64,000 nt of DNA from positions 19,752,761 to 19,816,760 of the forward strand of contig OY540818.1 in NCBI GenBank assembly GCA_961205875.1, in the 5' to 3' direction. Positions 14,231 to 61,534 of this stretch are shown piece by piece (the stretch's first letter is position 1; each line of letters starts with the position of its first letter). The notes beneath the pieces were generated by a model. That model made no database searches and was not told the DNA's origin. It saw nothing but the letters and a program-made list of their open reading frames with translations. Both the position numbers and the translations under genes were made by a program. Source of the stretch: Sialis fuliginosa. Lineage: Eukaryota; Arthropoda; Insecta; Megaloptera; Sialidae.

Positions 14231-15072
14231 AGTGTATATATTGTTACTATTATTATATACAAGTTTTGTGATACGAGTGAGCGAAAAAAAAACAAAAACA
14301 TTTGTGACTATTTTTTAATAAACATTTTTAAAAGACTTTAAAGTGATACACAAATTTTTAATGCATATAAAACTGAACATTTTGTGATTAAGAATGTAAT
14401 AATAAAAATGTGTATTTTTTTGTAATAACAAATAACAAATTTTAACAGCAAGTAAAAAAATTTGAAAGCTAGTGAAACTTTATGTATAATTTAGACATAC
14501 GTGTAATTAAGTTAAAAATACAGTCAACTATTTTGTTACAAAGGCTTTCATTTTAATGAGTGAACAACTAAAGTAAATATTTAAAACCCACACAACCAAA
14601 ACGTTAAACATTAATACAAATAATAACACCATTGTGTTAACAAAGTGTCAAAACTTATTTTGTGTTTCTTCATAAAAAAAAAATGAATATAAATAAATGT
14701 CAGTGTACATTTACTATGCGTTAAAAATGTGTCATTAAATGGATCAGAGACACCTTATTGTTTGAAAAACCGACCAATCAGCGTTCACCTGCGTTTGTTT
14801 GTTTCTCATCCATTTCACACGCTACAATTAAAACCGACGGGAAGTCAAAGAAAGCTGAAATGAAGACAATACTAGATTTAAGAATAAATTAACGCAACAT
14901 TTAATATGGGAAAGTCACAAAGAATGGTGAAATGTTTGTAAATCTTTTAAGTTATGGCGTATAGTTAGCATATGTCTACAAATTCTGTCAAAAATAACCG
15001 CTATATTTAAACAAACCGATCTCAAGCAATCCATGGAATCAGATTTGGTCAGTTGTGTTTTGTTTTTTTAAA

Positions 15073-18000
15073 ATGTCACGGTTGCCAACGTTACTGTTGG
15101 CATGTGCAACTGGGTTACTATTAACACACGCTGCCGATGCGCCTCCTTACCGCCACGTCCCTGCACCGTACCCACGCCGAAACGTCGGAAGAATTTTAAG
15201 CCGCCAACAACGAATAGATAGGACTTTCGACTCGATTTACGGAAACCTACGAAGTGACCTTTTACCGAAACCTTTAAGTGGGGTTGTAAATGTAAACGCT
15301 CAAAGACGTAGGGATGATTTGTACAATACTACAAAGAGTGTTTTAGATAAGTCGTACAGGGGTTATGTCCCCCCAACTAGGAATAATTATATGAGATTGA
15401 AATTCGCTAGTTCGCTACCTCCCAGAAGATGGTCACAATCTTACGATGAGCATTTTGATTCGAGTCGAAAGTCGAAATCTATGTTAGGTGGTAATAGAGG
15501 GACTTTAACTTTTCCTAGCGATACGGATTTACCAGCTGAAGATACTGTATTTGAAAATAGTAAAAGTAATAATAATAATAATAATAGACAGTTGATACCT
15601 TTTGGAGAACAGGATTATCTTGTACCAGATAGATACAATTCACAAGATAATTTCAATTCAATGCAAAGTTGGGAATCTAGTTTAAGACAAACGGCTGAAA
15701 GTGAATATAAATTAAGAGGCCAACCTGACGATAATATTTATACACAAAGCAATTTAGGTAGGCTTAAAAATGCAAACTTTCCCGAAAAGAGTGTTTTTGA
15801 TAATGAAGATTACAACGCAAATGGGAGATTCGCGAGAAATAATGCAGGGCAAACTGATGATTTTTTAGGTAGTCCTCCGGATCAAACAAGTGTGAATTTA
15901 AACGAGAACTCGCAAGTTACCCAATATCAAGATCCTACAAGGCTTGAAGCGAGTTTCGTCCAGTTTTCCGATTACGAAAACCAAAATCGATTCAAGATTC
16001 CTAATCCTAACGATGCTAAACTTGTCCAATTCTCTGATTTGAACCAACCCCATTCTATACGATACGACACCCCACAAAAGCAAGAAAACGTAAATATATT
16101 TGCAGACGTGAAGTACAAGGAATATAACCATGGTGTTGTAAATCAAGATCAAGTGCCTCAAGGCCAGATAACGCAGTATAGTAACCCAACAAATTCAAAT
16201 AATGGATTAGTACGTACACCTACAGATCAAGGGGTTCAATACCAACCCCAAGATACCCCTCCTGAAGGAGATGAGACAAGTGTAACCGATTCTGATCAAT
16301 CTAACGAAGAAAGCAACACATCAACAACAGCTAGAAGATTCCCAGCTGCATTTAGCGGTGCGTGGAGGGGTAGAACTCCCCCGTATTTCACAGCACCGCC
16401 TTCCCTGTTACCTGGAAGGTTCGGTGTTACAAACAGGCCTAGTGCTTGGAGGACAGCAAGAGGACCAAGGGTTGTTTTCCCCACGGGGGGTGCCGAGTTC
16501 GTCACGTTCAGAGATAAGCCGGATGAGAACGATGCTTGGTTAGCGGGAGATATAAACCTGCAGGATTTATCCAACACAGCTGCTACTGGGAATGGTGCCG
16601 GTGCAAGCAGCCCTGTCCCGGGGAATGTGGGAGTTGCGCCTGTTCCTACGGGATTGGGGACTGCTGAACCGCAATCGAGAGATAGAGGTTAGTTGATTTG
16701 TTAAATATTTGATATAGGGTCAACTGGGGAAAAAGTGAAACAAAATACAAATCTTTAATGTTTTTTGACAGTTAATGGTACAAATTCATACTTTAATTTT
16801 TTCTACTAGATGCGCTTATGAATAACCATTTTAAATACTTACATCATTTGAACTGTACGATACAACACGGACTTTAAAAATCAAAAAAGTGTGTTTCAGC
16901 AGGCCTCTACAAAGGCAACTTTGATTTATCTTCTTTGTGGCATATCAATGTAAAATTGTAACTTTAATTATTAATATCTGAGCTATACAAAAAGTTATGT
17001 ACAAAGAATTAAAATTTAATTCACACGTTTTGACATCGACTAACAGGGAAATCTGTAGGGGTGACACATCACTTATTAGGTCGCTTTAACAAACCTTTAA
17101 TGATGATGTCAGTTTTTATAATTTTCCTATAAACAAATCAGTTTTTTAGTTGTAAGTTTGTTTCACTTTTACCCCATTTTTTTGGTGTTTCATATTTACC
17201 CCGCTCGACCCTATATACATTAAATAATGATAGGTTGCAATGGTGACACAGATTTAAGCGATTGTTTGACATGTCCGGGTTATTTAATAAATATGTGTAG
17301 GTATAATATGACTCATACGTCGGATTGTATGTAAACAGAGACGGGCTTACTCTCAACTCGGTCTACAAAATAAAACTAGATTAATAATTGTGTTATGTTA
17401 TCTATGGAATTTAACAGTTTAGTTTCTGCATAGATAAAATCCATAGATAACATAAAACTTTAGAAATAACTTGCATTCAAAATTTAAAACATTGTTAGTA
17501 AAAAAGAGAAATTTGATATTTTATTTTGATAGTAACAAATATCGATGTTTTTTTTAATTTGCGTTGTAAATCAGTGGTTCTTAAACTGTGTAAAAAATAA
17601 ATCAATATATAAAAATGCTTTAATTATAATTTTCCAATTCAGTAAATCAAAAAGAAAATTTAATAATGATATTTTGTAATATGTCTAAAAAAACCCTAAG
17701 CCGTCTCTGTATTCATAAATGTGAGTGTGTTTGTGTGTGTGGGTTAGTGTGCTAGAACTGCAGTTTCTGTTTTTTTAGAGAATACAAAAAGTTCAAATCC
17801 GTTTCCTGCTAATGAAAAATAATAAATAACATATTTGTAAAATATAATTGTAATTATTATAATAACAAACTATGTTTACATATTTATAACACAATATAAC
17901 TATTAATTAAAAATCACATACAGTAGCTTACTTCCTGTGACATTTAATATATACCGGAAGTTATTTGCTATACTGTAAAAAAATATAATAACAAGTTAAA

Positions 18001-27000: not shown

Positions 27001-27797
27001 TTTTTGTTCGGATTTACTTGAAACTTAACATGAATAAATATTCTACAATACAAATAATGACCCACGTATTTCAATATTTTTTTATACGTGCCTAAATAGC
27101 CATTGAAGGGGTGAAAACCACCCTAAAAATTTGTACCGTGCATTTAAGAATTCATGTTGCCTTGGAAACAAACGAAATTACATTCAAATTATCAGATTAG
27201 TTATTCTAAAAATGTGTATTATATTATTGACATTAGGAAAAATATAAAACTAATATTCATAATACAAAGGTCAGTTTTATTTCTGACAAATTCCATTAAT
27301 ATTTTTTATATATGTATCTACATTATAATATTTAAAAAAATATTCACATAAACTATATGGGAACAATAAATAATTTGTATTAAATTATATATAGTCATAC
27401 TATGTTGGGAAGTTGGTTGTGTGGACCTAAGGGGTCGAACCCACTGCTTGTTTTTGATAAGATTTTTAGGCTAATTTTGAGAATTTTGTATATAAATTTT
27501 TTCGTGGTAAAGTTGAAAAAAAATTTAACAAAAAAAAAAAATGATTTCAGATGGCACAGGAATAACGGGATCAACGTAGTGATTTACGACGAAATGTTGT
27601 GCGCCGGATACAGACAAGGCGGACGAGACTCGTGCCAAGGAGATTCAGGAGGGCCGCTGATGCTACAACGTGCAGGAAGATGGTACCTCATCGGGATTGT
27701 CAGCGCTGGGTACAGCTGCGCCCAACCGGGACAACCGGGAATATACCACCGGATAGCGCACACTGTACAATGGCTATCCAGACAGATATCACTATAA
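15073..27797 (+). CDS. P1: secreted CLIP-like trypsin-type serine protease, six exons
   Basis: Exons: 15073-16687, 19890-20153, 21985-22096, 25116-25275, 26468-26712, 27551-27797; 880 aa, all junctions GT-AG with matching phases. The ATG at 15073 opens a signal peptide ([20 protein letters not shown]). A long Asn/Gln/Ser-rich, probably disordered region (about 25-540) follows. Next comes a six-cysteine CLIP-like module (C544, C551, C557, C568, C577, C578), then a trypsin domain activated at RR640|IVGG. The triad is H680 (TAGHC), D732 (DVAVL) and S831 (GDSGGP). D825 six residues before the serine predicts cleavage after Arg/Lys. It is probably an extracellular S1A protease zymogen acting in a cuticle, developmental or immune cascade; the pathway is not shown. 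From memory it resembles the Drosophila CG8170/CG8172 type; this was not checked. The exon 2 acceptor has almost no pyrimidine tract. Confidence 0.93.
16717..17211. mobile_element. MITE with GGGTCRA ends in P1 intron 1
   Basis: Starts GGGTCAACTGGGGAAAAAGT, 29 bp after the exon 1 donor, and ends CCCCGCTCGACCC, flanked by TATA. A second copy lies at 41531-42056 in intron 1 of P2, flanked by TA. TA target duplication suggests a Tc1/mariner-type non-autonomous element. No coding capacity. Confidence 0.75.
17212..19602. other. P1 intron 1, remainder
   Basis: AT-rich intronic DNA. No exon-like sequence or bounded repeat recognised. A short stretch near 17395-17455 is self-complementary ('tgttatctatggaattt' and 'aaatccatagataaca'). 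Confidence 0.5.
19611..19858. mobile_element. hAT-like MITE just before P1 exon 2
   Basis: A 248-bp element with terminal repeat CAGTGGCGTAGATAG and its complement CTATCTACGCCACTG. The flanking octamers are ctataata (19603-19610) and ttataata (19859-19866), seven of eight identical. An 8-bp duplication with CAGTGGCG ends is the hAT signature. It ends 31 bp before the exon 2 start, so it reshaped the acceptor region. Confidence 0.88.
20154..21984. other. P1 intron 2
   Basis: AT-rich intron without a recognised gene or bounded element. A run of C occurs near 20301. The donor is A|GTGAGT and the acceptor tgttctcag. Confidence 0.6.
22181..22325. repeat. Dispersed hairpin repeat with GAAACGTTGG module
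   Basis: Contains 'aagtcttgaggtttccgcgg', 'gatgtccactgcaatgtgtg', 'acgaaacgttgg' and 'cttacacccagaagccaa'. The same order occurs at 60826-61000, where the two ends are inverted copies of each other. A partial copy lies near 24992-25045 and another fragment near 47080. Probably a foldback-type mobile element of unknown class. Confidence 0.7.
22326..23088. other. P1 intron 3, unassigned part
   Basis: Contains 'gtttgtctgtctgtctgtct' and 'acagacagatagacatcat' near 22430-22600, reminiscent of retroelement tails. No exon is seen. Confidence 0.45.
23089..24183. mobile_element. Foldback element, GTAAATGCACAGTGCTTCCTC family
   Basis: About 1.1 kb with long terminal inverted repeats: left 'ctgccaagtaaatgcacagt', right its near-complement ending 'gcatttacttggcag'. 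Inverted matching extends inward ('ccgatagtgttt' against 'aacactatcgg'). The interior holds 'atcggttcagtggttcatga' and GACA repeats. Relatives lie at 30615-30880, 36345-36760, 37488-38106 and 61535-62200. No transposase is seen. Confidence 0.8.
24594..24991. mobile_element. MITE family A copy, reverse, truncated
   Basis: Starts AAGTACTGGCACCAGTTATG and runs in reverse relative to 28452-28901. It stops in the middle of the family sequence, where a fragment of the GAAACGTTGG hairpin repeat (ctggcttctgggcgtaagct type) begins. Confidence 0.75.
25743..26082. mobile_element. piggyBac-like MITE in P1 intron 4
   Basis: A 340-bp element with ends GGGGGCAGACCCAGTTTGGA and the complement of a near-identical sequence, placed exactly between TTAA at 25739-25742 and TTAA at 26083-26086. 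TTAA flanks with G/C-run ends are typical of piggyBac non-autonomous elements. Related single ends occur near 38210 and 44473. Confidence 0.8.
26713..27550. other. P1 intron 5
   Basis: Contains a dispersed segment near 26870-27350 ('ccattgaaggggtgaaaacc') also present in degenerate form near 8100-8240. No exon is visible until the acceptor atgatttcag before 27551. Confidence 0.55.
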
Positions 27798-28209
27798 AAT
27801 GATAAACAATCCGTACCCCCGAGTTACGTCTCTTGTTCGCATTTACGTACATATTACATACCTGAAAACAGATATCACTATAAAATGATAAACAATCCGT
27901 ACCCCCGAGTTACGTCTCTTGTTCGCATTTACGTACATATCCATACCTGAAAACAGATATCACTATAAAATGATGAACAATCCGTACCTCCGAGTTACGT
28001 CTCTTATTCGCATTTACGTACATATCCATACCTGAAAACAGATATCACTATAAAATGATAAACAATCCGTACCCCCGAGTTACGTCTCCTGTTCGCATTT
28101 ACGTACATATTACATACCTGAAAACAGATATCACTATAAAATGATAAACAATCCGTACCCCCGAGTTACGTCTCCTGTTCGCATTTACGTACATATTCCA
28201 TACCTGAAA
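27782..28209 (+). repeat. 85/86-bp tandem repeat including the P1 stop codon, five copies
   Basis: 'acagatatcactataaaatg' occurs at 27782, 27868, 27953, 28038 and 28124 (periods 86, 85, 85, 86). The first unit contains the last P1 codons (Q-I-S-L) and the TAA, so the coding end lies inside the first copy and the next four copies would lie in the 3' untranslated region. Copies differ at only a few bases, which suggests recent expansion. Confidence 0.95.
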
Positions 28210-31164: not shown

Positions 31165-32455
31165 TGTACTGGCGCCGCGGCGTGGGAAGAAATATTTGTG
31201 AAGGACGCGGCGCTTAAATAATAAACAAATTAAGTAAAAAATTCCAAAATAGGGGGAGGAACGCCAGGAGACACGTGCACATCGTGAGAAACACCGGCGC
31301 TTCTATCGTAGCATCGCAATGAATGTATACAGAGAAAATCATGAGGAATGCCGGGCGTCCATAGCGTGGGAAAAATGCACTGTGTTGACTTAAATACATA
31401 GGGTTTCTAACATGCGCCGGGAGACACGCGCCAATCGTGAGAAGCACCGACGCGGCGGGCGTGGGAATAAATATTTGTGAAGGACGCGGGCGCTTAAATA
31501 ATAAACAAATTAAGTAAAAAATTCCACAATAGGGGGAGGAACGCCGGGAGACACGCGCCAATCGTGAGAAGCACCGACGCTTCTATAGCAGCATCGCAAT
31601 GAATGTATACTGGAAAAATCATGAGGAATGCCGGGCGCCCATAGCGTGGGAAAAATGTACTGTGTTGACTTAAATACATACAACATAGGGTTTCTAGCAT
31701 GCGCCGGGAGACACGCGCCCATCGTGAGAAGCACCGGCGCTTCTATCGTAGCATCGCAATGAATGTATACAGAGAAAATCATGAGGAATGCCGGGCGCCC
31801 ATAGCGTGGGAAAAATGTACTGTGTTGACTTAAATACATACAACATAGGGTTTCTAGCATGCGCCGGGAGACACGCGCCCATCGTGAGAAGCACCGACGC
31901 TTCTATCGTAGCATCGCAATGAATGTATACAGAGAAAATCATGAGGAATGCCGGGCGCCCATAGCGTGGGAAAAATGTACTGTGTTGACTTAAATACATA
32001 CAACATAGGGTTTCTAGCATGCGCCGGGAGACACGCGCCCATCGTGAGAAGCACCGACGCTTCTATCGTAGCATCGCAATGAATGTATACAGAGAAAATC
32101 ATGAGGAATGCCGGGCGCCCATAGCGTGGGAAAAATGTACTGTGTTGACTTAAATACATACAACATAGGGTTTCTAGCATGCGCCGGGAGACACGCGCCC
32201 ATCGTGAGAAGCACCGACGCTTCTATCGTAGCATCGCAATGAATGTATACAGAGAAAATCATGAGGAATGCCGGGCGCCCATAGCGTGGGAAAAATGTAC
32301 TGTGTTGACTTAAATACATACAACATAGGGTTTCTAGCATGCGCCGGGAGACACGCGCCCATCGTGAGAAGCACCGACGCTTCTATAGCAGCATCGCAAT
32401 GAATGTATACTGGAAAAATCATGAGGAATGCCGGGCGCCCATAGCGTGGGAAAAT
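31165..32455. repeat. 160-bp GC-rich satellite array
   Basis: 'gcgccgggagacacgcg' recurs at 31701, 31861, 32021, 32181 and 32341, exactly 160 bp apart, nearly identical. The left part contains two longer variant units (about 280 bp apart) with an inserted 'aaattaagtaaaaaattcca' segment. Since 160 is not a multiple of three, the overlapping 108-residue frames on the minus strand change phase per unit, so I read this as non-coding satellite. Confidence 0.92.
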
Positions 32456-32849
32456 TCACTGTTGTGACTGTAATTTGCAGAAAAATTCCAATATATGAAA
32501 ATAAAAAATAAAAATCTTTTGGCTATTGATAATAATTTTTTTTAAATTTATTTAAGGCAGAACCGGACTGGTCCTACCCTTTCAATTTTAAAGGGCATTT
32601 TTTTTTTCAGTTAACTAATTCGATGCAAGAAAATCATTATAGAACATATTTCTTTGTATTGACCCCAGTAGCGCAGTAACGGGGACGACGACGACGACCC
32701 CCCCCCCCCCAACCGGAATATTCAGTGGTCTAAAAAAACGTATGTTTTGAGAAAACATCAGTTCAAAATACCTTCAAAAATAATACATAGTATGTATGTC
32801 TCAACCATGACGCCATGTAATAAGTATATAATAATATTTATAAATAAAA
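32456..32849. other. Spacer between satellite and palindrome
   Basis: No gene. Contains a run of C near 32699 and AT-rich sequence. Confidence 0.5.
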
Positions 32850-32882
32850 GGTAAGTAATGTTAAATTATACAATATTTTATA

Positions 32883-33000
32883 ACCTGTGTAGATAAATAG
32901 GTAACAAATAACTAATTAAGAGCATCTATGTAGATAAATAGATGTTATAAATTCAGTAAGTTAACAAACATGTATGTTATACCTGTGTAGATAAACAGGT
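32883..33000 (+). repeat. Left set of three GTAGATAAA hairpin boxes
   Basis: Boxes at 32883-32902, 32924-32943 and 32981-33000 (third: ACCTGTGTAGATAAACAGGT). Each has five-base arms that can pair around the core. The arm sequence differs between boxes (ACCTG/CAGGT against ATCTA/TAGAT) while pairing is largely kept. Confidence 0.85.
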
Positions 33001-35292
33001 ACACATATTATCAAATACTAAGCAACTAAATAATATATTATTTATATCTATATTAGAAAAAATATTTGAAAAAAATTTGGATTAGTCGGAATAGCATCTG
33101 AAACAAATATTGAAATTAGAAGGTACATGTGGTGCCATCTACTAAAAATAGCTTGAACGAACAACTTTTTGAATGTTCAAGTTTGTCCCGCTAGATGGTG
33201 CCACATGAACCTTTTAAATTTCAATAATTTTTTCAGATGCCATTTCGACTAAGTCAAATCTTTTGTCGAGTTAGAGCCGCTATCGTATGTATTAGGACAA
33301 CCTGAGTCCAAAAATGTATATAAAAAGTTTCGCTCGGATCGATGAAACTGTTTTTTATCAACATTTGTCTAAAAAATTTGCTTGAAATTTTTAACAAACA
33401 AAGGTATTTTAATCTGGTGTTATATATGATATCAGCGTGTCCTTTTACATATGATGGCGTGCATAATATTTTCAAATTCAAAATGGGTGTATCAAATAAA
33501 GTACTGAAAAACACATCCTTATTGAATTTGAAAATAATTAACACGCCATCGTATGTATTATGACTCGCTGATAACATAAATGATAATAGATTTTAAATCA
33601 ATTCACTGGTTCAAATTTTGATGAAATTTTTTAAAACAAAAGTTGATAAAAAACCATGTTATCGATCCGAGCGCAACTTTTTATGGGCATATTTGGAATC
33701 AGGGTGCCCTAATACATACGATAGCGTCTCTAACTCGCCAAAAAATTTTTTTTCCAAAAAAGAAGCAAGGCTATAGTATGGCTTAAAAAACACCCGAAAA
33801 ACACTTTTTTCGATTTTCAAATAATTAGATACGTTATCGCATGTAAAGGGATATGCTAATTCGACAATTTTGATCTGTTGTGAAATTCATCAAAGGGTTC
33901 AAAAGTTACAGCCATTTTACGACGAAAAATTGATAAAAAACGGTGATAGGGGTCCGAGCGGAACTTTTTATCAACATTTTTGGAATCACCATGTTGTTAT
34001 ACATACGATAGCGTGCCTAACTCGACAAAAAAAAATTTGATGCTATGACGTAACATGACGGCATCTCCACCATATATACAGAATAAAATATTTTTTGATT
34101 TTTTTGTATTCCTTATTCAAAAATACCAAATATATATTATTTTTGTATATTTTTATAAATGGTGAAGGCGCCGTCATGTTACGTCATCGCTACAAATTTT
34201 TTTTTGTCGAGTTAGACACGCTATCGTATGTATAACAGCATGGTGATTCCAAAAATGTTGATAAAAAGTTCCGCTCGGACCCCTATCACCGTTTTTTATC
34301 AATTTTTCGTCGTAAAATGGCTGTAACTTTTGAACCCTTTGATGAATTTCACAACAGATCAAAATTGTCGAATTAGCATATCCCTTTACATGCGATAACG
34401 TATCTAATTATTTGAAAATCGAAAAAAGTGTTTTTCGGGTGTTTTTTAAGCCATACTATAGCCTTGCTTCTTTTTTGGAAAAAAATTTTTTTGGCGAGTT
34501 AGAGACGCTATCGTATGTATTAGGGCACCCTGATTCCAAATATGCCCATCAAAAGTTGCGCTCAGATCGATAACACGGTTTTTTATCAACTTTTGTCTTA
34601 AAAAATTTCATCAAATTTTGAACCAGTGAATTGATTTAAAATGTATTATCATTTATGTTATCAGCGCGTCATATAACATACGATGGCATGTCAATTACTT
34701 TCAAATTCAATAAGGATGTGTTTTTGAATACGGTAATTGATATACCCATTTTGAATTTGAAATTATTATACACGCCATCGTATCTAAAAGGACACCCTGA
34801 TATCATATATTACACCAGATTAAATTTCCTTCATTTGTTAAAAATTTCCAGCAAATTTTTTAGACAAATATTGATAAAAAACAGTTTTATCGATCCGAGC
34901 AAAACTTTTTATATGCATTTTTGAACTCAGGATGCCCTAATACATAAGATAGCGTCTCTAAATCGTCAAAAAAAAATTTCACTTACAATTAGTCGAAATG
35001 GCTTCTGAAAAAATATACATGTGGCACCATCAAGCAAAAACAGTTTGAACTAACAATATAAATTCAGCATGTTTTGATAGTTCAAGCCTTTCATGTTAGA
35101 TGGCGCCACATGTACTTTTCAAATTCCAATTTTATTTTCAGAAACCATTCCGACTAAGTCCAAATTTTTTTGTCGCTACCGTATGTATTAATTCTAAATT
35201 TGTTCATACGATGGCGTGTATAATACTTTCAAATTCAGGTATATTTTTCAGATAATTTATAAAACCTTAAACGCGATTTAATTTTTAAATAT

Positions 35293-35408
35293 ACCTGTTT
35301 ATCTACACAGGTATAACAGTCATATATGTGAACTCACTGAATTGATATCTATTTATCTACATAGATTCTCTTAATTTGTTTTATGTACATCTGTTTATCT
35401 ACACAGAT
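35293..35408 (-). repeat. Right set of three GTAGATAAA hairpin boxes
   Basis: Boxes at 35293-35312, 35347-35366 and 35389-35408 are inverted counterparts of the left set (first: ACCTGTTTATCTACACAGGT). The outermost uses ATCTG/CAGAT arms, a third pairing variant. Order and approximate spacing mirror the left set. Confidence 0.85.
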
Positions 35409-35789
35409 ATATAATATATATTGTAATTATACTTACCTAATATATGAGTTTTTTGTTCTTCATTTTTTGGCTAAACTATGAACTTTACAAAAAAATATTA
35501 AATGACAACTGTGTAGAAAATTTTATTGTCTATAATACTCTATAAAAGTGCCCGTACCGTCAAAAGTTACAGTGATTTTTTTTTGTTAAAATAATGTTAC
35601 TGAATAATATTCCATTAATTTTAAGACGAATTTTATTAATATTTTTTACTGTAATTCCTGAACGATTCAACGAAATAATTTAAACTTTTAATACGTAAAA
35701 GAAGATTATTAATGAACATTTTAAGTCCATTCCAAGTTTTGAGAGATTTATAATTTCGATTTTTTATTTGAAAAAGTAGTTTTTGTTAA

Positions 35790-38959: not shown

Positions 38960-39605
38960 TATTATCTAATCATTTTAAAATCCAAAGTTTTCGAATTAAT
39001 TCTAAAAAACTACTAATGTCAAATTTTGCGGTACTGTAACTCGTTAACTGTTGGTCGTATAGAACAACGCCCTGAGGGAAAATTGTAGAGAATTTAATTG
39101 TCTACAAGATTGTCATTTAACATTTTAATGCAAAATCAATATTTTACGAAATAATTCGCAAAAACTACTTTTTGAAAACTTTTCGGCGCTGTAACACGTT
39201 AACTGTTGATCGTACAGAACGACGCCTAAGGAAGAAAGTGTAGAGAATTTAATTCTCTACAAGATTGCCATTTAACATTTTAATGTAAAATCAATATTTT
39301 ACGAAATAATTCGCAAAAACTACTTTTTGAAAACTTTTCGGCGCTGTAACTCGTTAACTGTTGATCGTACAGAACGACGCCTAAGGAAGAAAGTGTAGAG
39401 AATTTAATTCTCTACAAGATTGCCATTTAACATTTTAATGTAAAATCAATATTTTACGAAATAATTTGCAAAAACTACTTTTCGAAAACTTTTCGGCGCT
39501 GTAACTCATTAACTGTTGATCGTACAGAACAACGCCCTGAGAGAAAATTGTAGAGAATTTAATTTCCTACAAGATAGTCATTTAACATTTTAATATAAAA
39601 TTATT
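38960..39605 (+). repeat. 155-bp tandem satellite, about four copies
   Basis: 'aactgttg' with 'tcgt' context recurs at 39046, 39201, 39356 and 39511, exactly 155 bp apart. Units share 'ttttaatgtaaaatcaatat' and 'gtgtagagaatttaattctc', the latter containing a short palindrome (gagaatttaattctc). The array ends about 65 bp before the first P2 exon sequence. Confidence 0.93.
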
Positions 39606-42700: not shown

Positions 42701-45700
42701 GCACAGCGTCTTTTGTTTCTATGATATCAGAGCACAGAACTGTCATTTATATAAAAACACAGTAGCCATGGAATATAAGACGCTGAAAACAATTACTAAA
42801 TGTGAATGTCAGTTTGAATCATGATACCTACAAATTTATATCTTTCCACCATGAGTTTGAATGAAAAAATATGCATTTTACAATATAAATAAACTGGTTT
42901 TTATAAATTACAATAAAGAACTTCCAAGAAAGGTAACCTATTTATTTATTTTTGATTTTCATACAAATTCTAAGATAAGACCTGGGTGTTTCCTGGGAGA
43001 AAATATAATTTTACACGATTTTTTCAATAACTACTGGATTTTATTCCGGTTTTCACTAATAGATAGGTTAAGTTTAGGTGTATAATTTGTCGATATTTTG
43101 GGTAAATTTCATGAAGCCGGAAAAGGGTAAGCATGTTGAGTGAGCATGTTGGGTGGGCAATTTAATTAATGCGCTAGTATTTTATAAAAACCTAAAATTT
43201 AACATAAAAAGATTTTTTTAAAAATTGTCCAAGACTGGTGCCAGTACCTTATTAATATGATTTATGTTATTTCCAGCCGCACAACGGCTCCGGCAGTGCT
43301 TCGACGTCGCGCAGATACAGACGAGGTAGAGTACCTGGAGGTCGGCACGTGGAGTCAGAGCCGTCGACGGCCGATGGGCGCGGGAACGGCGGTGCGGGCG
43401 CGCGACAATTGCGGCGTGTCGCGCGAAGACCGCTACCTCCAGAAGCGCATCGTCGGCGGCCGCCAAGCGCGCTTCGGCCAGTTCCCGTGGCAGGCGCACA
43501 TTCGCATCGCCGCTTACCAGTGCGGCGGCGTGCTCGGTAGAAATATTTACTGATATTTTTCGAATAATTTATTTCTTAAACTAAAATTATACACCTTAAC
43601 CACAATAAAACAATGTCACTCGACACGTGTTTCGACTTCACAAGAAGTCCTCATCAGGAGCCTAACAGTTTCAGACGAAACACGTGTCTAGTGACATTGT
43701 TTTATTGTGGTTAAGGCGGCTATTACACTATCAAAGAAATATGATAAAATTTCTTTGATCAAAGAAATATGACAGTGTAATAAGTCAACTTTTATAATAT
43801 TTACCTTCATAATATTTCTATGATCATAGTTAATGACAGTCTCTTATATTTGATCAAAGTTTTTTGTCAGATAAATCAAAATGGCGACTACCAAGTTATC
43901 ACTGACAGTTACAGTTACATAATTATTAATATATGAATATCAACAAAATCCAGTATTATATGATAATCTTCTTATTGATTATAAAAACCACAATACACGG
44001 TTGTAAATTCAAACCTCGATCGCGTCAATTGACGAACATCCACGCACTGATATTCAAAATGCACCAAAAAAGAAGAAAATATCCCTAGATAATATTGAGA
44101 AAATATTATCAAATATTTTATGTAGTGTAATAAAACAAAATCTCGTATTTTATCAAAGAAATATGATCAAATCTTTGTCAAAGATCTTTGACATATTTAT
44201 TTGATAGTGTAATAGCCGCCTAAGGTGTATAATTTTAGTTTAAGTGACTAGAAACCACAGTTTCTCCGTTTTTCCAGTAATCAGTATTGTTTGTTTGTTT
44301 ATAGTTTCTTGGCGGTACGTAGCAACGGCGGCGCACTGTATAATCCGCGCGCGTCTCTCAGATATCAGCGTGTACCTGGGAGAGCTAGATACACTCGATA
44401 CCGGCCAAGTAATCGAGCACGCACCAGCTGAGAAATATAGGTAAAATACATAACTAAACTCTATTTCATTTAAGGGGCAGACCCAGTTAGAATTTTGAAA
44501 AAATCATTTTTTTTTGCATTTTCTCAAAGTACAATATTTCAAAATTATTCTCTGAAAATTTCAGACAAATGTCCTGTCCATAGACGATTCAGTGTAAGTT
44601 CCAAAATACATTTATTATCTGCATGCAAATCGTACTCAAAACTTTAAACGCGTTTTTCTCGAAACCATGTCTTCGAAGTCGGTGATCACTGTAACTTGAG
44701 AACGGCTTTGCCGATCGGTTTGAAATTTTTCTCACTTATTCTATACATAATTGTCCTCCGGATTCGTACCGTCAAAACCCCGCCAACCACTGCATTCTTA
44801 AATGAAATAGAGTATAGTATATTTATATTATACACAAAAAAATTTAAAAAAAAAACTAAAAATACTGAAAAGTATATAAAAATTAAATTTAACATTTTTT
44901 GAAATCGGTTTTATTTTATTTTTTTCACAAAAAGTTTATATTTATTTTTCCCTTTTGAGTAGCGTATCTTTGAAGTTTATGGTTACATTCTGTTAAAATT
45001 TATATGGAACCATCTGGGGAGTATATTCTTTCAAACAAACAAAAATCGTCCAAATCGATGCATATAACCTCCTCCTTTTTTAAAAAATATTACAACAATA
45101 TAATAGAATCTGTTTTATTCCAGAGTAACAAAAAAAATCATTCATCCGCTATTCGAATATCGGTTAAGCCAACCGGACCGGTTCGATGTTGCTTTACTGC
45201 GGTTGAACGACGGACCGCGGTACCGCACAGAGCACATAGTGCCTATCTGTCTGCCGATACGCCGAGACGCTGACATGTCAGGCGCGGCGGCGGTCGTAGC
45301 TGGCTGGGGCAAGGTGCAACCTACCGCGGAACAACCGGGCACAAACGTACTCAGATCTGCCTCTGTGCCTATACTCGGTGAGTACACATTGCTTCTCAAA
45401 TTTTCCGGTTTTACTATAACCGATGTAGTAAAACCGGGTGTAAAAATGTACTGTACACCCGACATCAGGTCTAGTTATGCCTATTCCTCTTGGTCTACAG
45501 GAATAGCATAAGTAAACCAGAATAGAGCAGGAATAAAAATGCGGACATAGTTATACCTATTTAGCCAACCTCAAAAAATATAAGTATCTAGGGAGTGTGG
45601 GGATTTCATCGTAATGCACTTCGCATTAACTTAACATTTGAAAAAGCGTCGTCAGTTAAAATATGGTTAAAATACCTGAGAAGAAAATATGGAAAACAAA

Positions 45701-47661: not shown

Positions 47662-49747
47662 TCATAAACTATTACAATGTTTAAGTTTATGCCTTTTCAT
47701 GCTATCTTTTCTCGAAGAACTAAAATCACAATGGTCGCATTTCAAATGTCTTACAATATCATGCGTTAATTTATGCCTTCTCAGCTGACTTTTCCATGCA
47801 GAGCTATATTCACATCGGTCGCATTTAAAAGGTCGATCGTTTGTATGTACCAGTTTATGCCTAATCAACATATAATTCCATATGCAACTATATTCACATC
47901 GGTCGCACTTAAACGGTCGTTCTGATGTATGCTGGAAGCCATGAATATTCAAATCACTTTTTCGTACACAGCTATATTCACATCGGTCGCATTTAAACAA
48001 CCGTTCATTAGAATGTGTTAACTTATGCTTCTTCAACTGATTTTTCAATTTACAGCTATGTTCGCATTGGTCGCACTTAAACGGCCTGTCAGTTGAATGA
48101 GCAATTTTATGCCTAACCAAACGTTCTTTCTGTATGCAACTATACTCGCACTGGTCGCATTTAAAAGGTCTCTCGGTGCTATGTATCAATTTATGTTTCA
48201 CTAAACTCTGTTTTAATGTACAACTATATCGACATTGATCACAATTAAAAGGTCTTTCGTCACTATGCGTCGTTTTATGTTTCACCAAATCATTATTCTG
48301 TACGCAGCTATACTCACACGTATCGCATTTAAAACGCCTTTCATTGGAATGTGTTAATTTATGCCTCACTAAATCACTTTTTCGTTTACAGCTATGTTCA
48401 CATCGATCGCACTTAAATGGCCGCACGTCAGAATGCGTCACTTTATGTTTTACTAATTTCTGTTTAATTGTGCAGCTGTATTCACATCGGTCGCATTTAA
48501 ACTGTCGCTTATTACTTTTATGTTGCATTGTACACATTTGTTCACATTTCCGTTCGTTTGTATGTATTATTTTATGTATAACTAAACTATGCTTGATTGT
48601 GCAGCTATACTCACATTGATCGCATTTAAAAGGTCGTTCATTACTGTGGGTCTTTTTATGCCGAACTAAATCACTTTTCCGTACGCTGCTATACTCGCAC
48701 TGTTCACATTTGAATGGCCGTTCGTTTGTATGTGTTAATTTATGTTGTATTAAAGAACATTTCTCTATACAGCTATATTCACATCGGTCACATTTCAGAG
48801 GACGTTCAGTAGAATGTGTTAGTTTATGCTTTTCTAAATACTGTTTTCTTATGCAGCTATACTCGCATCGGTCGCATTTATATTTCTTTATATTGGATTT
48901 ATCAGAAGGTTTTTTACTAATTGTAAGATTTGATTCACTGTTAACTATTTCATTGTCGAATTCATCGTTTATTGTTGCGTTATTTTCTTCATTTACAATC
49001 AAATCTTCCTGAAAAATAAAATTTACTTCACATATATGACAGACAGAAAAGAAAACGTGTTTTGTGAAAAAAATCCATAGCAATAAAATCTTTAGTTTTC
49101 AAAAGTAATTGTAACATAAACACAAAAAAATATTGTTAAATTTATGTCCGGTATTATAAAGGACCTAACAAAATTTGTTAGCTAGCAATTACATTCAGAT
49201 GGGGTATTAATTCTGTACTAGTATCTATGGATTAGTTATGGAATTTAGAGCAGTGACACTTCAACTAATTGTAACACAGTTGGCATCTTTGACCGTACAA
49301 AATAATTTTCATAACATCACCACTGTTTTAATACCGTTGGTATTTACTTACTACAACTTGTCAAAGTCTTCAACAAACTCCAAAAGAACTGTCATATAAG
49401 TTTGATATCTCAGTTAAAAGTGCTTGCTAGCTAACAAATTTGTTAGGTCCTTTATGATACCGGACATAATTGTAACATAAACATAAAAAAATATTGAATG
49501 AATTCAAAAAAATCTTTTTAAGCATGCGCGACTTCCGTCAAACATACAAAATGGCGTTTTTACATACCTGATATTCTTGTTTGATGTATACTGAACAAAT
49601 ATTATAATTTTCAGCATTTTCAAGAGGGTCACTTTCTTCTACATCTTCTTTTATAACTTCTTGTTTCACATGAACCATTTCGACACAGTTTTTTGTATCT
49701 AGAAGATCCTTTTCTTCTTTTACATCTTCTGATTTCACGTGGAACAT
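47662..49747 (-). CDS. Z6: C2H2 zinc-finger protein, 14 intact fingers
   Basis: Exon 1 49747-49568 (60 codons), exon 2 49008-47662; donor CAG|GTATGT, acceptor tttttcag, phase 0; 508 aa. Exon 1 is acidic with four hydrophobic-K-x-E SUMO consensus sites (VKSE, VKEE, VKQE, IKQE). Exon 2 gives a short acidic linker, then C-x2-C-x12-H-x3-H fingers joined by THSNERPFK-type linkers. Between fingers 4 and 5 is a collapsed finger (KCEQMCTMQHKSNKRQFK) that lost the helix. The frame can be read upstream of exon 2 to a TTG at 49083, but no ATG exists there, so splicing from exon 1 is required. Probably a sequence-specific nuclear DNA-binding regulator; targets unknown. The first four fingers are close to those of Z5. 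Confidence 0.9.
49143..49468. mobile_element. MITE with ATGTCCGGTAT ends, copy in Z6 intron
   Basis: A 326-bp element. Left TATGTCCGGTATTATAAAGG, right the complement of a similar sequence; 'aacaaaatttgttagctagc' follows the left end. A second copy in the opposite orientation is at 56132-56465. A 30-bp stretch starting taattgtaacataaaca occurs on both sides (49106-49135 and 49467-49496, one mismatch). Confidence 0.85.
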
Positions 49748-49865
49748 TTTAAAACAGTAATAAAACAATACAAATAAATCAACTGCAAATTATTAGTTTA
49801 ATAACAATTATGTATTCATTTTAATTTCCGTGAAGCGACTAGGTATTTACTAACAACTGTAACAT

Positions 49866-49950
49866 ACCACCATTTTGTATATATGTTCTATGTCAGCCTA
49901 TGTAAACTAGAACAGTGATACCCAACATTTTTTAAACGTTTCATTTCATT
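49866..49950 (-). promoter_or_regulatory. Shared upstream block of the cluster, Z6 copy
   Basis: The core acagtgatacccaacatttt at 49911-49930 lies 164 bp before the Z6 ATG. The consensus over the cluster is GCAGTGRTACYCAACATTTT. All six genes have a copy at 85-172 bp (Z5 after subtracting an insertion), so it is probably part of the promoter or leader. Confidence 0.55.
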
Positions 49951-50459
49951 TTTGTTTTCGTCCAAGCCGTACAAAATTATACATACTTACTTATTAAAAG
50001 CTGATTAGAAAAAAACAATGGAATACAGTAGGGGAAACAGGACAAAAATATAAAAACTTTATTGTTCAAGAAATATGGATTGATATATCTACAATATAAT
50101 ATCTCCTAAAGCACTAATTAATGGCTTATATAATTAAGTAATGCATATGTATTGCTCAGCAATCTTGTTATAAAAAAATAAAATAAATAAATAATAAATT
50201 CCCCAAAAACATCAATAATTCTTACTTATTGTTAGTTATTATTATTAATATAAATAAATCTCCAATTATTAACTTATCTGGTTATACAAAGAAAGTGTTT
50301 ATTTTTCTACCTCTAATATAAAAACGAATGAACCGATTTTAATGCGGTTTTCACCAATAAATAGATTTTTTTAAAGCATGTTTTTGGCAGATAAATGGGC
50401 ATTGTTAAGTACACTTTATAGCAATTATCTGTGCAAAATATAATTAACAGAGATGGGTA
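49951..50459. other. Z5-Z6 spacer
   Basis: No gene. A line of text with 'gtaggggaaacaggacaaaa' near 50028 has relatives near 52965, 55930 and 57810, so the spacer was duplicated together with the genes. Confidence 0.5.
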
Positions 50460-50867
50460 AGGTAAATGCATCAGTTATGGCCCCTATAAGAGCAAATTTC
50501 GTTGTTTTTTTTTTTATTAATGGGCTTGTTTTTTGTAATTCTCATGAACTTGTGTTAAGTAACTCTTTATTTAATCAATTTAATTACCAAAGTCACCAAA
50601 TATAGTTTTTTTTCAGTAATGGATAAAGTAAAACCAGTAATGAGTACGCAGTGATGGACACTTGCTAATGATAAGTACTAGACACAAAAGATATCGTCAA
50701 ATTTGAAACAATGTAAAGCAGTTGCTATGATAATATAATAATTAATAAATAAATTATACCAATAATTAGTTTAAATGTCCACCAACAAATATCAACACAC
50801 ATTTCTAATTCAGTACATTTAATTTAAAAAAATACTAGGATCCTTGCCACGACTGGTGCCAGTACCT
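50460..50867. mobile_element. MITE family A copy in the Z5 3' flank
   Basis: Reverse copy starting AGGTAAATGCATCAGTTATG and ending 'gactggtgccagtacct', with TA at both edges. Its right end is 23 bp beyond the Z5 stop codon, so it probably lies in the Z5 3' untranslated region. Confidence 0.8.
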
Positions 50868-50890
50868 TATATAGTTAATATTGGTTGCAG

Positions 50891-52405
50891 TTAGGTAGTT
50901 GCATCTTGTACATTAGTATGTATTAATTTATGTGTCACTATATCACATTTTCTCATACTGCTATATCCACAAAGATCGCATTTAAGAGGTTCTTCATTAG
51001 TATGATTAAATTTATGCCTAACTAAAGACCGTTTATCTACACAGCTATATTCACATCGGTCGCATTTAAATGGTTTTTCGTTTTTATGTTTCAATCTATG
51101 AATTCCTAAAGTACGTTTTTCTTTACAGCTATAATCACATTGGTAGCATTTAAACAACGCATCATTATTATGTTTTAATTTATGTTTTATTAAATCATTT
51201 TTTCGTATAGTGCTAAACTCACACTGGTCACACATAAAAGCCCGTTCATTACTATGTATTAACTTATGTTTAATCAAATCACTTCTACGCACAGCACTAT
51301 ATTTACAAACATTGCAATTAAATGGCCGCGCTTTATTATGTTTCAATTTATGAATGATTAAATTACGTTCTTCTGTGCAGCTATGTTCACACTGATTGCA
51401 CTTAAACGGTCGATCGTTTGTATGTGTTAATTTATGTACCTTTAAATATTGTTTCTGTATGCAACTATACTCGCACTGATCGCATTTAAAAGGTCTTTCT
51501 TTGACGTGAGTTAATCTATGTTTCACTAAATCACTTTTCCGAACACAGCTATGTTCACACAGGTCGCACTTAAATGGCCGCACTATTGCATGTGCCAGTT
51601 TATGCCTTGCTAAAGTATTTCTTGCTGTGCTCCTATATTCACATAAGTCACATTTAAATGGCCGTTCGTTTGTGTGCAGTATTTTATGTTGTACCAAAGT
51701 ATGCTTGAGGGTAGTGCTATAATCGCATTGATCGCATTTAAACGGACGTTCGCCACTGTGTTTTCTTTTATGTCTCACTAGATCACTTTTCCGTACGCTG
51801 CTATACTCACACTGTTCGCATTTAAACGGCCGTTCGTTTGTGTGCGTTAATTTATGCTGTACTAAAGAAAATTTCTCTATGCAACTGTACTCGCATTGGT
51901 CGCATTTCAGTGGTCGTTCGGTTGAGTGGGTAAATTTATGATTTTTTAAATAATGTTTTCTGTTACTGCTGTACTCGCATTGATCGCATTTAAATTTCTT
52001 AAGATTTTCACTGATTTGTGTAGTAAAATTGGACTCATTGTTACACTCTGTTTTTATTTCATCTTGTGTTATTTCTTCATTTTTATCTTCATGTAGATTT
52101 TCTTCATTTTCAACCAATTCTTCCTGAAAAACAACAACAAAACTGTTTCAGAACCTCTTTTACTTTGTCTTTGACACATGTGGCGTCATTTTGCAAACAT
52201 ACAAGATGACCATTTTACCCATTTTACCTACCTCATATTCTTGTTTGATATATACAGAACAGATATCATAGTTTTCAGCATTTTCAACCGGCTCATTTTC
52301 TTCTTTTATAACTTCTTGCTTCACGTGAACCATTTCAATGCAATTTTCTGCATCTTGAAGAGGATCGTTTTCTTTTTTTATATCTTCTAGTTTCACCCGA
52401 AACAT
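50891..52405 (-). CDS. Z5: C2H2 zinc-finger protein, 13 fingers
   Basis: Exon 1 52405-52232 (58 codons, MFRVKLED...), exon 2 52123-50891; donor GAG|GTAGGT, acceptor tttttcag, phase 0; 468 aa. Exon 1 has five SUMO consensus sites (VKLE, IKKE, VKQE, IKEE, IKQE), and one more (IKTE) lies in the linker of exon 2. Thirteen regular fingers follow, most with an additional cysteine three residues after the second metal-binding one (CEYSC). Finger 3 has the same helix as Z6 finger 3 (RKSDLVR). Short tail N-V-Q-D-A-T-T. Probably a nuclear DNA-binding regulator. Its upstream block is interrupted by the MITE at 52516-52730, and a family A MITE abuts the 3' end. Confidence 0.92.
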
Positions 52406-52483
52406 TTTAACGTGGTTTATTCAATTTTGAACCGTAATAAAACAATATTTTAAATTACGTGAAGCGACCAGACAGCTTACAAC

Positions 52484-52761
52484 TAAAATGGCTACTCTCC
52501 GTTCTATGGCTGGAACCATAGACTTATAGAATGGACACAAAATTGACCATTCTCTTGAAAGAGACAGAGCGATGTTTCGGACAATACCTGTCTCTTTTCT
52601 GTAAGTCAATTAGAATTCTAGAAAGAGACAGGTATTGGCCAAATAGTCGCTTTGTCTATCTCACACTTTCTCGACAGTATTTACTTCAAAACTGGATAGG
52701 GTATGCTCGGTCCATTCTATAAGTCTATGGCTGGGACTGGAGTAGCGGTACTCAAAATTTT
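52484..52761 (-). promoter_or_regulatory. Shared upstream block of Z5, split by a MITE
   Basis: The proximal half 'aaaatggctactctcc' is at 52484 and the distal half 'gtagcggtactcaaaatttt' at 52742-52761; in Z1, Z3 and Z4 the two halves are 40-60 bp apart. The extra distance is the 215-bp element at 52516-52730. Without it the core would be about 122 bp before the ATG. Confidence 0.6.
52516..52730. mobile_element. MITE with 21-bp perfect ends upstream of Z5
   Basis: The left end CCATAGACTTATAGAATGGA is matched perfectly by its complement at 52710-52730. 'ggctggaac' on the left and 'ggctgggac' on the right may be an 8-9-bp target duplication with one change. It contains a 63-residue frame without recognisable domain. 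Confidence 0.82.
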
Positions 52762-53095
52762 TATTTGTTTTGTTTGATGAATGAAATTTCTTTTTTTTAC
52801 GATTTGATTGTTTGAATATTTTATACCAAAAATCAAAAATACTATATTTCTCTGTAAAAATTTTTATTAATGTTTTAATTTTTTGTATATTTTCGATTTG
52901 CATACCTAAAAAATAATGAATATGATTGAGATTATAGAAATTTTGAATAAAAATGGATTGCAGTATGGGGAACTGGACAAAAACAACATAAAACTATATT
53001 AATTATTTATTATAACAATAATACAATAAAAATTAATATTTATTTTATATAATTCATAAAAGAATACTGAAGATATATATGTATATAGGTATATA

Positions 53096-53774
53096 ATGGG
53101 TAGTTCTACACACGAAGGAAGAAAATGGAGTTAATTCCGGCACGAAAAAATGAGTAAAACACAAGAGAATTTCTTATATTAATTTTTATTATTAAATTTA
53201 GGTTAACAATTTATTAAACTTTCAAACATAACATAAATATAATTATTTATTTATAATCGAATAAGATGAACAATCAGGGCATGTGAAATATAGAATCCAC
53301 AGTAATTTCTTCTATAATTTTTTGTTTTGAATAATATGAATTCGAGTAATCCCTCCATTTTTTTCGAATTTGTCGTTTTTCACGTTCTGTCATTTCAGAT
53401 ACTAATTTTCGTTGGCCTTTTTCTTTTCTATTCAAATACTTCAGTCTATTTTTTTCTATTTGAACCGCCAATCTTGCAGGATCATTTTTGATTTTCTCGT
53501 ATCTGATCCGTTCAGCTATTTTCTTCTTCTTCAATCTTTCTTCTTTAATTAGTTTTTTATTTGATCGGGTCATTTTCACTGTAACAATTATAGCAACACT
53601 TTTCATAAATTTTGAGTGTTATTTTTTATAAAAAATATATTTCGAAACGGGGTTATTTTAAGGGGCATGTTAGGCACAGTACTAGTTTACAGTTTCCATC
53701 TAGAAAAAATGCATTTTTCAAAATATTAATATACGAAATAAGTCAAAAATTCCGTTATTTGTAGAACTACCCAT
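53096..53774. mobile_element. Inverted-repeat element with a short basic ORF
   Basis: Left end ATGGGTAGTTCTAC (53096), right end GTAGAACTACCCAT (to 53774), perfect over 14 bp, flanked by ATA on both sides. Inside on the minus strand is the ORF at 53274-53573. Probably a DNA transposon reduced to a small ORF, or a gene-capturing MITE. Its superfamily is uncertain. Confidence 0.7.
53274..53573 (-). CDS. Short lysine/arginine-rich coiled-coil-like protein
   Basis: From ATG 53573 the frame encodes 99 residues (MTRSNKKLIKEERLKKKK...); an upstream ATG at 53606 would add 11. It is extremely rich in K, R and E, with runs compatible with a helix, and ends VDSIFHMP. It contains 'EKGQRKLVSEMTEREKRQIR', a type of segment I recall at the start of larger uncharacterised insect proteins linked to repeats; this is memory, not a search. 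No catalytic domain is visible. Lying inside terminal inverted repeats, it is best read as the remnant 5' coding part of a mobile element. It could bind nucleic acid; function unknown. Confidence 0.5.
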   Translation of the reverse strand: MTRSNKKLIKEERLKKKKIAERIRYEKIKNDPARLAVQIEKNRLKYLNRKEKGQRKLVSEMTEREKRQIRKKWRDYSNSYYSKQKIIEEITVDSIFHMP

Positions 53775-53949
53775 ATATATAACATAAAACGATTTTCTAC
53801 AAAAAATATTTTATTATAAATATAAATATTTAAACATTTTTAAACAATTTAGTACATGTAATTTTATTTATTTAGAAAACCTGATTAGAAATCCCGCTCG
53901 AAGGACCAAGTAAAAACAAAATATTTGAATTAACATAAAATTGCCCACA

Positions 53950-55427
53950 TCACACATGTGCCAATTTATGTCTTATAAAACTGTCTTTTTCTATACAGCT
54001 AAATTCACATTCGTTGCATTTAAAAGATCCTACATTTGTATGTTTCAATTTATGTCTTACTAGATTGTTTTCCCTTGCGCAGCTATATTCACATCTGTCG
54101 CATTTAAAAGGTCGTACATCGGTATGTGTTATTTTATGTCTTATAAAACTATCTTTCTCAACACAACTATAATCACATTCATTGCATTTAAAAGTTCTTA
54201 CGCTATTACGAGACAACGTTTTTCTTACTGAATCAGTGTTATTTATACAGATATATTCAATCATTTTATCGTATCTAAAAGGTCGTACATTATCATGTTT
54301 TAATTTATGACTAAGAAAATAACTTTTTCGTTTGCTGCTAAATTCACACCTGTCGCATTTTAAAACTTGTTTTTCTAAATTGGTATCTGTTAATTTAACT
54401 AAATCACTTTTCTGTTTATAACCAAACGGTAGCTTCGTCTTATTATTATTATGTTTTAGTTTATGACTTTCAAAATCACTTTTCTTTTTACAGCTAAACT
54501 GACATTTATCACATTTAAAAGCTTGTTTTTTAATATGCGTTAATTGATGTATTTTTAAATTACTTTTCCAATTAGACTTATATGGACATTGATTACATTG
54601 ATGTGGTCGTATATTAACATGTGTTAATTTATGAATTTTTACATGATTTTTCCATACAGATTTATAATCACAATGATCGCATTTAAAGTATTTTATATCA
54701 TTTTGTTTAGTTAAACTGGACTCACAATTTGTTATTGTTTCTTCGTTTTTATTTTTGATTAAGGTATCTTCAGTAACAACCAAATGCTTCTGGAAAAAAA
54801 AACAATAATTATTTACTCACTACAATATTACAATTAATAAACATTAAGGTGGTCCTTACTTAAGCCCTATTAAATTGCTCAGTACGCAGGTCTTTGAAAA
54901 ATTAAAAAAACACGTGTATTTTAAATGGGGAAATCCCCCCTTATTTTATAAGAGAGGGCTGAAACTTTTTCCACATTCTTCTTGAATTATTTGGAGCTGA
55001 TTTGGGCTCAAAATTCGTCCTAACCTCATATAAAGACCACCCGAATAAACTAATTTTAATTTGCCTCATGTCCACTTGCTTCAAGAGCAATTTAATTGGG
55101 CTTAAGTAGAGCTCACACTTTTTTTTATCTTGTCTAAGTACTGTTCTCCAATTAATGAAACTATACCTGATTTTCTTGTTTGCAAGATATTGAAAATTCA
55201 TCTGGTGATTTGTCATCCTTATGAAGATCGATATTATTTATCTCTTCCTGTTTTACGTGAAATATTTCAGTACAATTTTCAGAATTTTGATGGTGATCAT
55301 TTACTTCTATTTCTTCCTTTATAAATTCTGGTTTTAGGTAGAGTACTTCAACACGGTTTTCAGCATCTTGAAGTGGACAGTTTTCTTCTATTTCTTGTTT
55401 AATATCTTCTTGTTTCACGTGAGACAT
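53950..55427 (-). CDS. Z4: C2H2 zinc-finger protein with two decayed fingers
   Basis: Exon 1 55427-55167 (87 codons, MSHVKQEDIKQE...), exon 2 54789-53950; donor CAG|GTATAG, acceptor ttttccag, phase 0; 366 aa. Exon 1 has five SUMO consensus-like sites (VKQE, IKQE, LKPE, IKEE, VKQE). Exon 2 has seven intact fingers. Finger units after the third and fourth have lost ligands: one reads LPFGYKQKSDLVKLTDT, without its cysteines and histidines, the next RYDKMIEYICINNTDSVRK. The spacing of a finger is kept in both, so these are degenerating modules, not insertions. Its last finger and 3' flank ('gctcgaaggaccaa' near 53896) resemble Z2. Probably still a DNA-binding protein. Confidence 0.88.
54790..55166. 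other. Z4 intron
   Basis: Short intron with a partly inverted text 'gcctcatgtccacttgct' and 'cagtacgcaggtctttg'; no other feature recognised. Confidence 0.5.
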
Positions 55428-55467
55428 TTCAATTTATTTTTGATCACTGTAAACTGACAGATTCAAA

Positions 55468-55545
55468 AAAGATGGCTACTTAATGTATTTCTCCGCATGT
55501 ATGTCAAATAGAGCAGTGGTACCCAACATTTTTCAAACGTTTCAT
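55468..55545 (-). promoter_or_regulatory. Shared upstream block, Z4 copy
   Basis: gcagtggtacccaacatttt at 55512-55531, 85 bp before the Z4 ATG, with 'gatggctactt' and 'ccgcatg' between. The ATGGC word resembles the core of YY1/Pho sites and GCATG the core of NRF-1-type sites; that reading is inference. Confidence 0.55.
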
Positions 55546-56131
55546 GCATATTATTTCATTCAAGCAAAAAATTATAGTTTAAATCTTTTTTGTGTAAATT
55601 AATTAAGTAATAGTTATATAATAATTTCCATTTTTTAGAACAAATCATTTTATTTTTTTCTCAAATTTTTTTTCGTAGATTAATGTCGTAATAACCCAAA
55701 AGTTACCTGAATATTAGTTAGGTCCTTTTTCTTCACTTAGTTTATTAGAAGAAAATTATTTCTCGTTACAGGATAAATTATAATCTAGTATTTATTCTCA
55801 GAACCTTGAAATTTGGTATATATATTATCTGGTTATTAAAAGTAAAAGTCAGTGAGCCTTTTTGGAATAAGGGGGTAAAAAATAAAACCTTATTAATTTT
55901 TTTTTATCGATTGCCAGGATTTAAAATACCAAGGGGATACAAGACAAAAAATATACTATCTAATAGCTTTATTAATTGATTTAAGAACTTTACAATAAAT
56001 ATGGATAAAATATAAACAAAAAATATAATAATAATGCACCAGTTGATAACTTACCTATTATATTCATTTATCTAATTGTAAAAAAATACCATACTCTTAT
56101 TCCCTTTTTGTTTTTGTCAACAGTTATTTTA
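55546..56131. other. Z3-Z4 spacer
   Basis: AT-rich, no gene. 'accaaggggatacaagacaa' near 55929 is related to the duplicated spacer text near 50028 and 52965. Confidence 0.5.
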
Positions 56132-56465: not shown

Positions 56466-56489
56466 AAGATTGGTCGCTTTTAGTAGCCC

Positions 56490-57482: not shown

Positions 57483-57587
57483 TTTAAATATATCTCGATC
57501 CGTAATTTTACAGTACAATACTAAATTAACTGAAAATATTGTTTTCAAAAAATAAATGTTGACTGACATACGATGTACAGAAAAAAC

Positions 57588-61505: not shown

Positions 61506-61534
61506 AATTTTTTTAATTTGATTTAAAAAACTAG

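Follow-up and report, generated by a model that had tools for sequence, protein, structure and literature searches.

Palindromic sequence in a 64,000-nucleotide stretch of the Sialis fuliginosa genome (the window) was found to belong to a dispersed family that is probably, at roughly 70%, a non-autonomous foldback DNA transposon of the PIF/Harbinger superfamily. Three copies read whole show that the element that dispersed was already palindromic and carried two arm types. We suggest that a HARBI1-like transposase acting in trans moves such copies, that pairing of the arms drives conversion, and that unequal exchange adds cores. The copy in the window would be a descendant within a group on contig C10, without transposon ends, whose two arms have separate origins through recombination or conversion with neighbours.

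Structure of the palindrome in the window

A first-pass annotation had described the segment as folding on itself, with hairpins inside each arm and a recurring word in alternating orientation, and all of this was confirmed (Table 1). Positions 32849-35171 align with the reverse complement of 35438-33069 at 2646 bits, the best of 50 dinucleotide shuffles reaching 48. Sub-hairpins pair 33070-33117 with 33217-33264 and 33370-33490 with 33513-33633, and both have mirror counterparts. The recurring word, here the box CGCYATCGTATGTA, has 14 sites with no more than 2 mismatches, plus and minus in strict alternation, against a mean of 0.05 and a maximum of 1 in 200 shuffles. Twelve of these boxes lie inside the inner arms and are paired into six modules, three per arm, whose two boxes start 168-169 nt apart. 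Each end block has three small ACCTGTGTAGATAAACAGGTA-type hairpins, six in all, and the outermost was seen in most of the family copies compared.

The outer arms have diverged, as had been claimed: identity in bins of 100 columns is 62-81% at 32849-33270, 88-95% at 33271-33670 and 98% at 33671-33770, reaching 100% (200/200) at 33771-33970 and falling to 92% at 33971-34070, so that the peak lies just outside the centre. The inner arms are 94% complementary over their 818 nt; the earlier count of two differences in 135 bp was only roughly right. Outside the palindrome on the left lies an arm of another kind, the S arm, whose 160-bp tandem repeats span 31179-32660.

Table 1. Features of the palindrome copy in the window and of its left flank (window positions).
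Feature	Positions	Strand	Remarks
Left outer S arm, 160-bp tandem repeats plus linker	31179..32848	+	one-sided in window
Whole palindromic unit	32849..35438	.	84.2% self-complementary over 2433 columns
Left end block, AGGTAAGTA..., three ~20-nt hairpins of ACCTGTGTAGATAAACAGGTA type	32849..33010	+	
Sub-hairpin, end block to inner arm	33070..33264	.	mirror about 35011-35170
Left inner arm, three box-bounded modules	33261..34078	+	818 nt, 94% complementary to right arm
Module 1, box to box	33278..33459	+	
Module 2	33544..33726	-	
Module 3	33832..34013	-	
Central spacer, 75 nt	34079..34153	.	between inner arms
Right inner arm, mirror of left	34154..34971	-	818 nt, 94% complementary to left arm
Module 3 mirror	34219..34400	+	
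Module 2 mirror	34506..34688	+	
Module 1 mirror	34773..34954	-	
Right end block, mirror	35283..35438	-	outside sequence unlike left flank

Fuller relatives with Harbinger-like ends

Further copies, for which the first-pass annotation had proposed a search, are plentiful. The genome searched (392 Mb in 20 contigs, the window being C10:19752761-19816760) gave at least 289 matches to the palindrome family, and family counts are lower bounds because 37 of 370 candidates were scored. The 17-mer CGCYATCGTATGTATTA was counted 272 + 266 times, whereas its reversed control was absent (0). Thirty-one segments were read, comprising 238,475 bases and 85 full inner arms; those assembled from overlapping loci had 58,817 overlapping bases with 0 disagreements.

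Three relatives were read whole. L033 and L036 are palindromes of 5.5-5.6 kb with GGGTGCCTTTTCATGTGACGC-type ends and L045 is one of 5.7 kb; they sit at different flanks, and all have transposase-derived sequence in both outer arms, inverted. They are among at least eight loci at which Harbinger arms face each other in convergent pairs, at distances of 4.7-11 kb (53 matches were obtained, 40 of 90 candidates being scored). As in foldback elements, most of the element consists of inverted arms, and these have repeats inside them.

HARBI1-type PIF/Harbinger transposons and MITEs have a DDE_Tnp_4 domain, a TWA duplication and a terminal repeat, and PIF/Harbinger transposons have a second gene, for a Myb-like protein. 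The fuller relatives share the first three features. Their HARBI1-like DDE transposase is recognizable, though decayed in the palindromes: DDE_Tnp_4 (PF13359) scored over the cut-off independently inside two bracketed palindromes, with a single stop in each match (C6:16870388, E 2.7e-6; C6:19922435, E 3.8e-6), and of two stop-free pieces in an L036 arm one matched the domain below the cut-off (E 4.2e-4) and the other had no match. A relative at C14:3851900-3853060, of which 1161 bases and one end were read, has an end of this kind too, and its DDE domain is better preserved (E 1.8e-23); it has 78.5% identity to the outer arm over 410 columns. A coding relative, also suggested as something to look for, thus exists, both at the two bracketed loci and on C14. 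When three short pieces were scanned (the two from L036 and one from C14), two matched DDE_Tnp_4 and none matched a P or THAP model. No intact transposase with exactly these ends was found, one candidate having been read, in part. Across the genome there were 146 DDE_Tnp_4 matches (150 of 189 candidates scored), about 51 of which, or about a third, lie on contig C14 at about 2.3-8.1 Mb, many with open frames.

Equal 3-bp TWA flanks, read from the seven-base start of the end repeat, border four of the six copies with ends read (TTA/TTA in L036, and TAA/TAA in L045, L033 and C6:16869517) and are absent from two, namely C13:6868844, with TTA vs TAA, and C7:19166711, with no clear duplication. Against a background of window sequence, four or more equal flanks in six would be expected by chance with a probability of about 8e-10 for fixed ends and 5e-6 with a one-base slide allowed per end. 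A target duplication of 8-10 bp, as in Tetris, was not found in the copies with ends read, where the 3-bp flanks fit. A genome search for an empty site of L036 found none; of its 41 matches two were the locus's own flanks and the other 39 a dispersed repeat that matched the right flank only.

The outer arms allow another explanation, which we consider possible but unlikely, in which the core would be a palindromic element in its own right, with AGGTAAGTA or the boxes as its ends, that was inserted in a Harbinger element and then mirrored with its flank, the Harbinger arms being passengers in some copies. Consistent with this, the same core has differing outer arms, with Harbinger arms in 7 of the 31 segments (4 of these having them on both sides, and many segments having been read too short to tell), S arms in 9 and a linker outside AGGTAAGTA in 18. 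Flanks also diverge at AGGTAAGT at the right end of the window copy and in L013 and L014, and some 20-40 nt further out in L042. An unsystematic look, however, noticed no target duplication at the AGGTAAGT ends, and the three Harbinger-ended copies dispersed with the core inside and with arm types fixed. Moreover, although S arms can stand on both sides of the core in inverted orientation (L002), an S arm lies, by coordinates, inside Harbinger ends at C13:6868844-6879834, so that both arm kinds meet in one copy. We favor a PIF/Harbinger foldback transposon for the family as a whole. The window itself has no Harbinger arm, and no Harbinger end anywhere at 4 or fewer mismatches, nor does its palindrome copy have a PIF/Harbinger terminal repeat at its own ends; for this reason the copy is described as a descendant of the family and not as a transposon copy itself.

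Arm types and proposed arm-to-arm conversion

The arms of L033, L036 and L045 fall into two types. Outer arms of the same type are more alike between copies (96.2-97.3%) than the two arms are within a copy (94.1-95.2%), so that the element must have been palindromic already when it dispersed. Informative sites were scored in these three single loci, with arms of 2.6-3.1 kb, and alignment columns were numbered inwards, starting at the outer end. Columns 1000-2000 had 21 arm-type sites and 0 copy-specific ones, and columns 2000-3250 had 1 and 43, respectively; the outermost 1000 columns (0 and 2) were uninformative, and the last 102 (17 and 1), which are mostly two unlike spacer halves, were left out. 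Differences thus mostly follow the copy in the inner arms and the arm type in the mid-outer arms, and hence the inner arms were homogenised once the copies had dispersed. If arm-to-arm conversion were confined to the inner arms, such a pattern would be expected, and it fits the sites of these three fuller copies. L045 is only partly homogenised: columns 2500-3000 of its two arms agree at 90-91%, under the between-copy level, and columns 3000-3250 at 99%, and its left arm has 97.2% identity to another segment vs 93.3% to its own right arm.

Conversion between arms had been offered in the first-pass annotation as one cause of the identity gradient, and stepwise outward growth as the other. The former fits the sites of the three fuller relatives and is not established for the window copy. 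There, the left arm is nearest to segment C10_19391673 (99.0%) and the right arm to C10_17348121 (96.1%), the two inner arms being 93.9% alike; since the arms come from different lineages, the gradient of this copy is no proof of conversion. Its near-identical tract also averages about 94-97% identity to other arms, so that the gradient is in part a conserved stretch. As to growth, the gradient in the fuller copies was not put down to outward growth, their outer-arm types being common to the copies; the diverged outer arms predate dispersal there, and outward growth is not needed to explain it. Growth of a different kind was seen, by whole cores in alternating orientation.

Growth into arrays

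Arm pairs were chosen as a plus arm followed by a minus arm less than 150 nt away, which gave 37 pairs in the 31 segments. Left and right arms were reciprocal best matches in 13 of the 37 pairs, comprising 10 of 16 single-core and 3 of 21 multi-core pairs, and were exact sisters in the tree in 11 of 37. Within arrays, the dominant process may be exchange from one core to its neighbours. L031 and L044 have two cores each, and the C13_17732699 segment has seven arms in strict alternation (+ - + - + - +). There are two kinds of centre, one with 37 gaps of 74-82 nt (the spacers of the arm pairs) and one with 13 gaps of 78-91 nt; the cores thus multiply both head to head and tail to tail.

The arrays raise the possibility, to us an improbable one for the family, of a palindromic higher-order satellite that spread by segmental duplication and unequal exchange, with transposon pieces hitch-hiking. 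The copies listed cluster on C10 (14.4-20.1 Mb) and C13 (6.9-17.7 Mb), in many cases as arrays of alternating orientation, and such a history is a good fit for the window copy. It accounts poorly for the segments on C6-C9, C11 and C12, 11 of 13 of which have a single pair of full arms (one array found on C12 is left out of the 13), and for the fuller copies, which have different flanks with equal TWA in four of six. Fold-back reads can create palindromes in long-read assemblies, but an artefact of chimeric reads is highly implausible here, as the arms differ by 6% inside and by up to 38% in an outer bin and the spacer recurs in all 37 arm pairs at different flanks.

The box and the 742-bp foldback

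Two smaller foldbacks of 742 bp lie in the window at 3145-3876 and 59837-60583, and the first-pass annotation had suggested that they may form one class with the palindrome. Homology to the modules, of a distant kind, was recovered: the copy at 3145-3876 scored 59.7 bits, whereas 100 shuffles gave no more than 38.3 and 65 other pieces of the window no more than 39.7. This foldback family had 2991 first-look candidates in the genome; 40 were scored, and each had a best match of 94-96%, the window's own copy aside. About 155 nt of left flank are also common to the two copies in the window, so a longer repeat may have the 742-bp foldback as one of its ends.

The box at 33713, GGGTGCC...ACGATAGCGTC, follows the order seen at the end of the C14 relative; its score of 30 was reached by 12 of 17,416 52-mers from the window and by 5 of 5000 shuffles. 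The match was weaker for the consensus box (50 of 17,416 window 52-mers and 30 of 5000 shuffles) and ordinary or weak for two other boxes (1570 and 220 of 17,416); against the L036 end the score of the box at 33713 was reached by 50 of 17,416. This likeness of letters between box and transposon end is suggestive, a lead and not proof. A tentative and rather doubtful extension of the foldback reading would be a self-building PIF/Harbinger element, in which alternating boxes descended from, or were copied from, the terminal repeat of the transposase and would be mirror-paired extra binding sites, with arm-to-arm conversion, and with palindromic satellites and the 742-bp foldback as by-products.

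Comparison with other elements

To our knowledge, typical PIF/Harbinger elements are not palindromic throughout and have one transposase gene; here, in contrast, a transposase remnant is found in each arm. Our full-text searches of open-access papers turned up no foldback transposon described as PIF/Harbinger. If the attribution is correct, a Harbinger foldback with transposase remnants in both arms would represent another route to the foldback form.

Tetris is described as a non-autonomous foldback transposon of Drosophila virilis with tandem repeats of ~220 bp and duplications of 8-10 bp, for which its authors suggest Mutator, the group to which they assign most foldback elements while allowing exceptions (PMC4079207). 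The present family is like Tetris in being a non-autonomous foldback with in-arm repeats that expand to satellite-like arrays and with rearranged modular copies, and differs in its modules of alternating orientation, 3-bp TWA flanks and decayed transposase of the DDE_Tnp_4 kind. Galileo belongs to the P superfamily, with a P-type transposase with a THAP domain and arms of 0.5-1.2 kb, and the internal repeats of its very long inverted repeats hold extra transposase binding sites (PMC3688188). Very long inverted repeats with internal repeats are common to both, whereas here arms are 2.6-3.1 kb (three copies) and the remnants are of DDE_Tnp_4. Palindromes of sex chromosomes, e.g. in willow, are reported to have arms kept alike by conversion (PMC7023750); those are on one sex chromosome, whereas ours is a dispersed multi-copy family.

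Galileo and Tetris already provide examples of the foldback form, of internal repeats and extra binding sites, and of the birth of satellites. New, going by our searches of open-access papers, is the combination of a foldback with PIF/Harbinger ends, transposase in both arms, mirror-alternating modules and separation of the age of the palindrome from conversion. That separation is possible in a dispersed multi-copy element since two arm types are still readable, despite the conversion that hides palindrome age. The family also joins a transposon, a satellite-like array and, by distant homology, an abundant short foldback family in one genome.

Other features

The segment had no match among phage records, no Rfam family reached the gathering score in the window, and the bacterial model found no tRNA there. 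At L002, Rfam matches to plant microRNA families were rejected, being below gathering scores and looking like generic hairpin matches. The same locus has 5S rRNA-like stretches in both outer arms (281-397 and 4856-4971; 28.3 and 34.1 bits, below the gathering score of 38), perhaps a piece of a 5S-derived SINE.

Elsewhere in the window, whose G+C is low, there is an inverted repeat pair (6336-6800 and 43758-44224, 96.6% over 468 columns) and two tandem arrays, one at 27782-28209 with 5 copies of an 86-bp unit (96%) and one at 38976-39601 with 4 copies of a 155-bp unit (90%). On the plus strand at 15055-16692 is an open frame of 545 aa with no Pfam match at E 0.001, and on the minus strand at 47662-62954 is a cluster of six open frames for C2H2 zinc fingers, with a period of 84 bp. 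Together with the low G+C and the zinc-finger arrays, the mitochondrial COX1 of the assembly, which contains 11 in-frame TGA codons, points to an animal genome.
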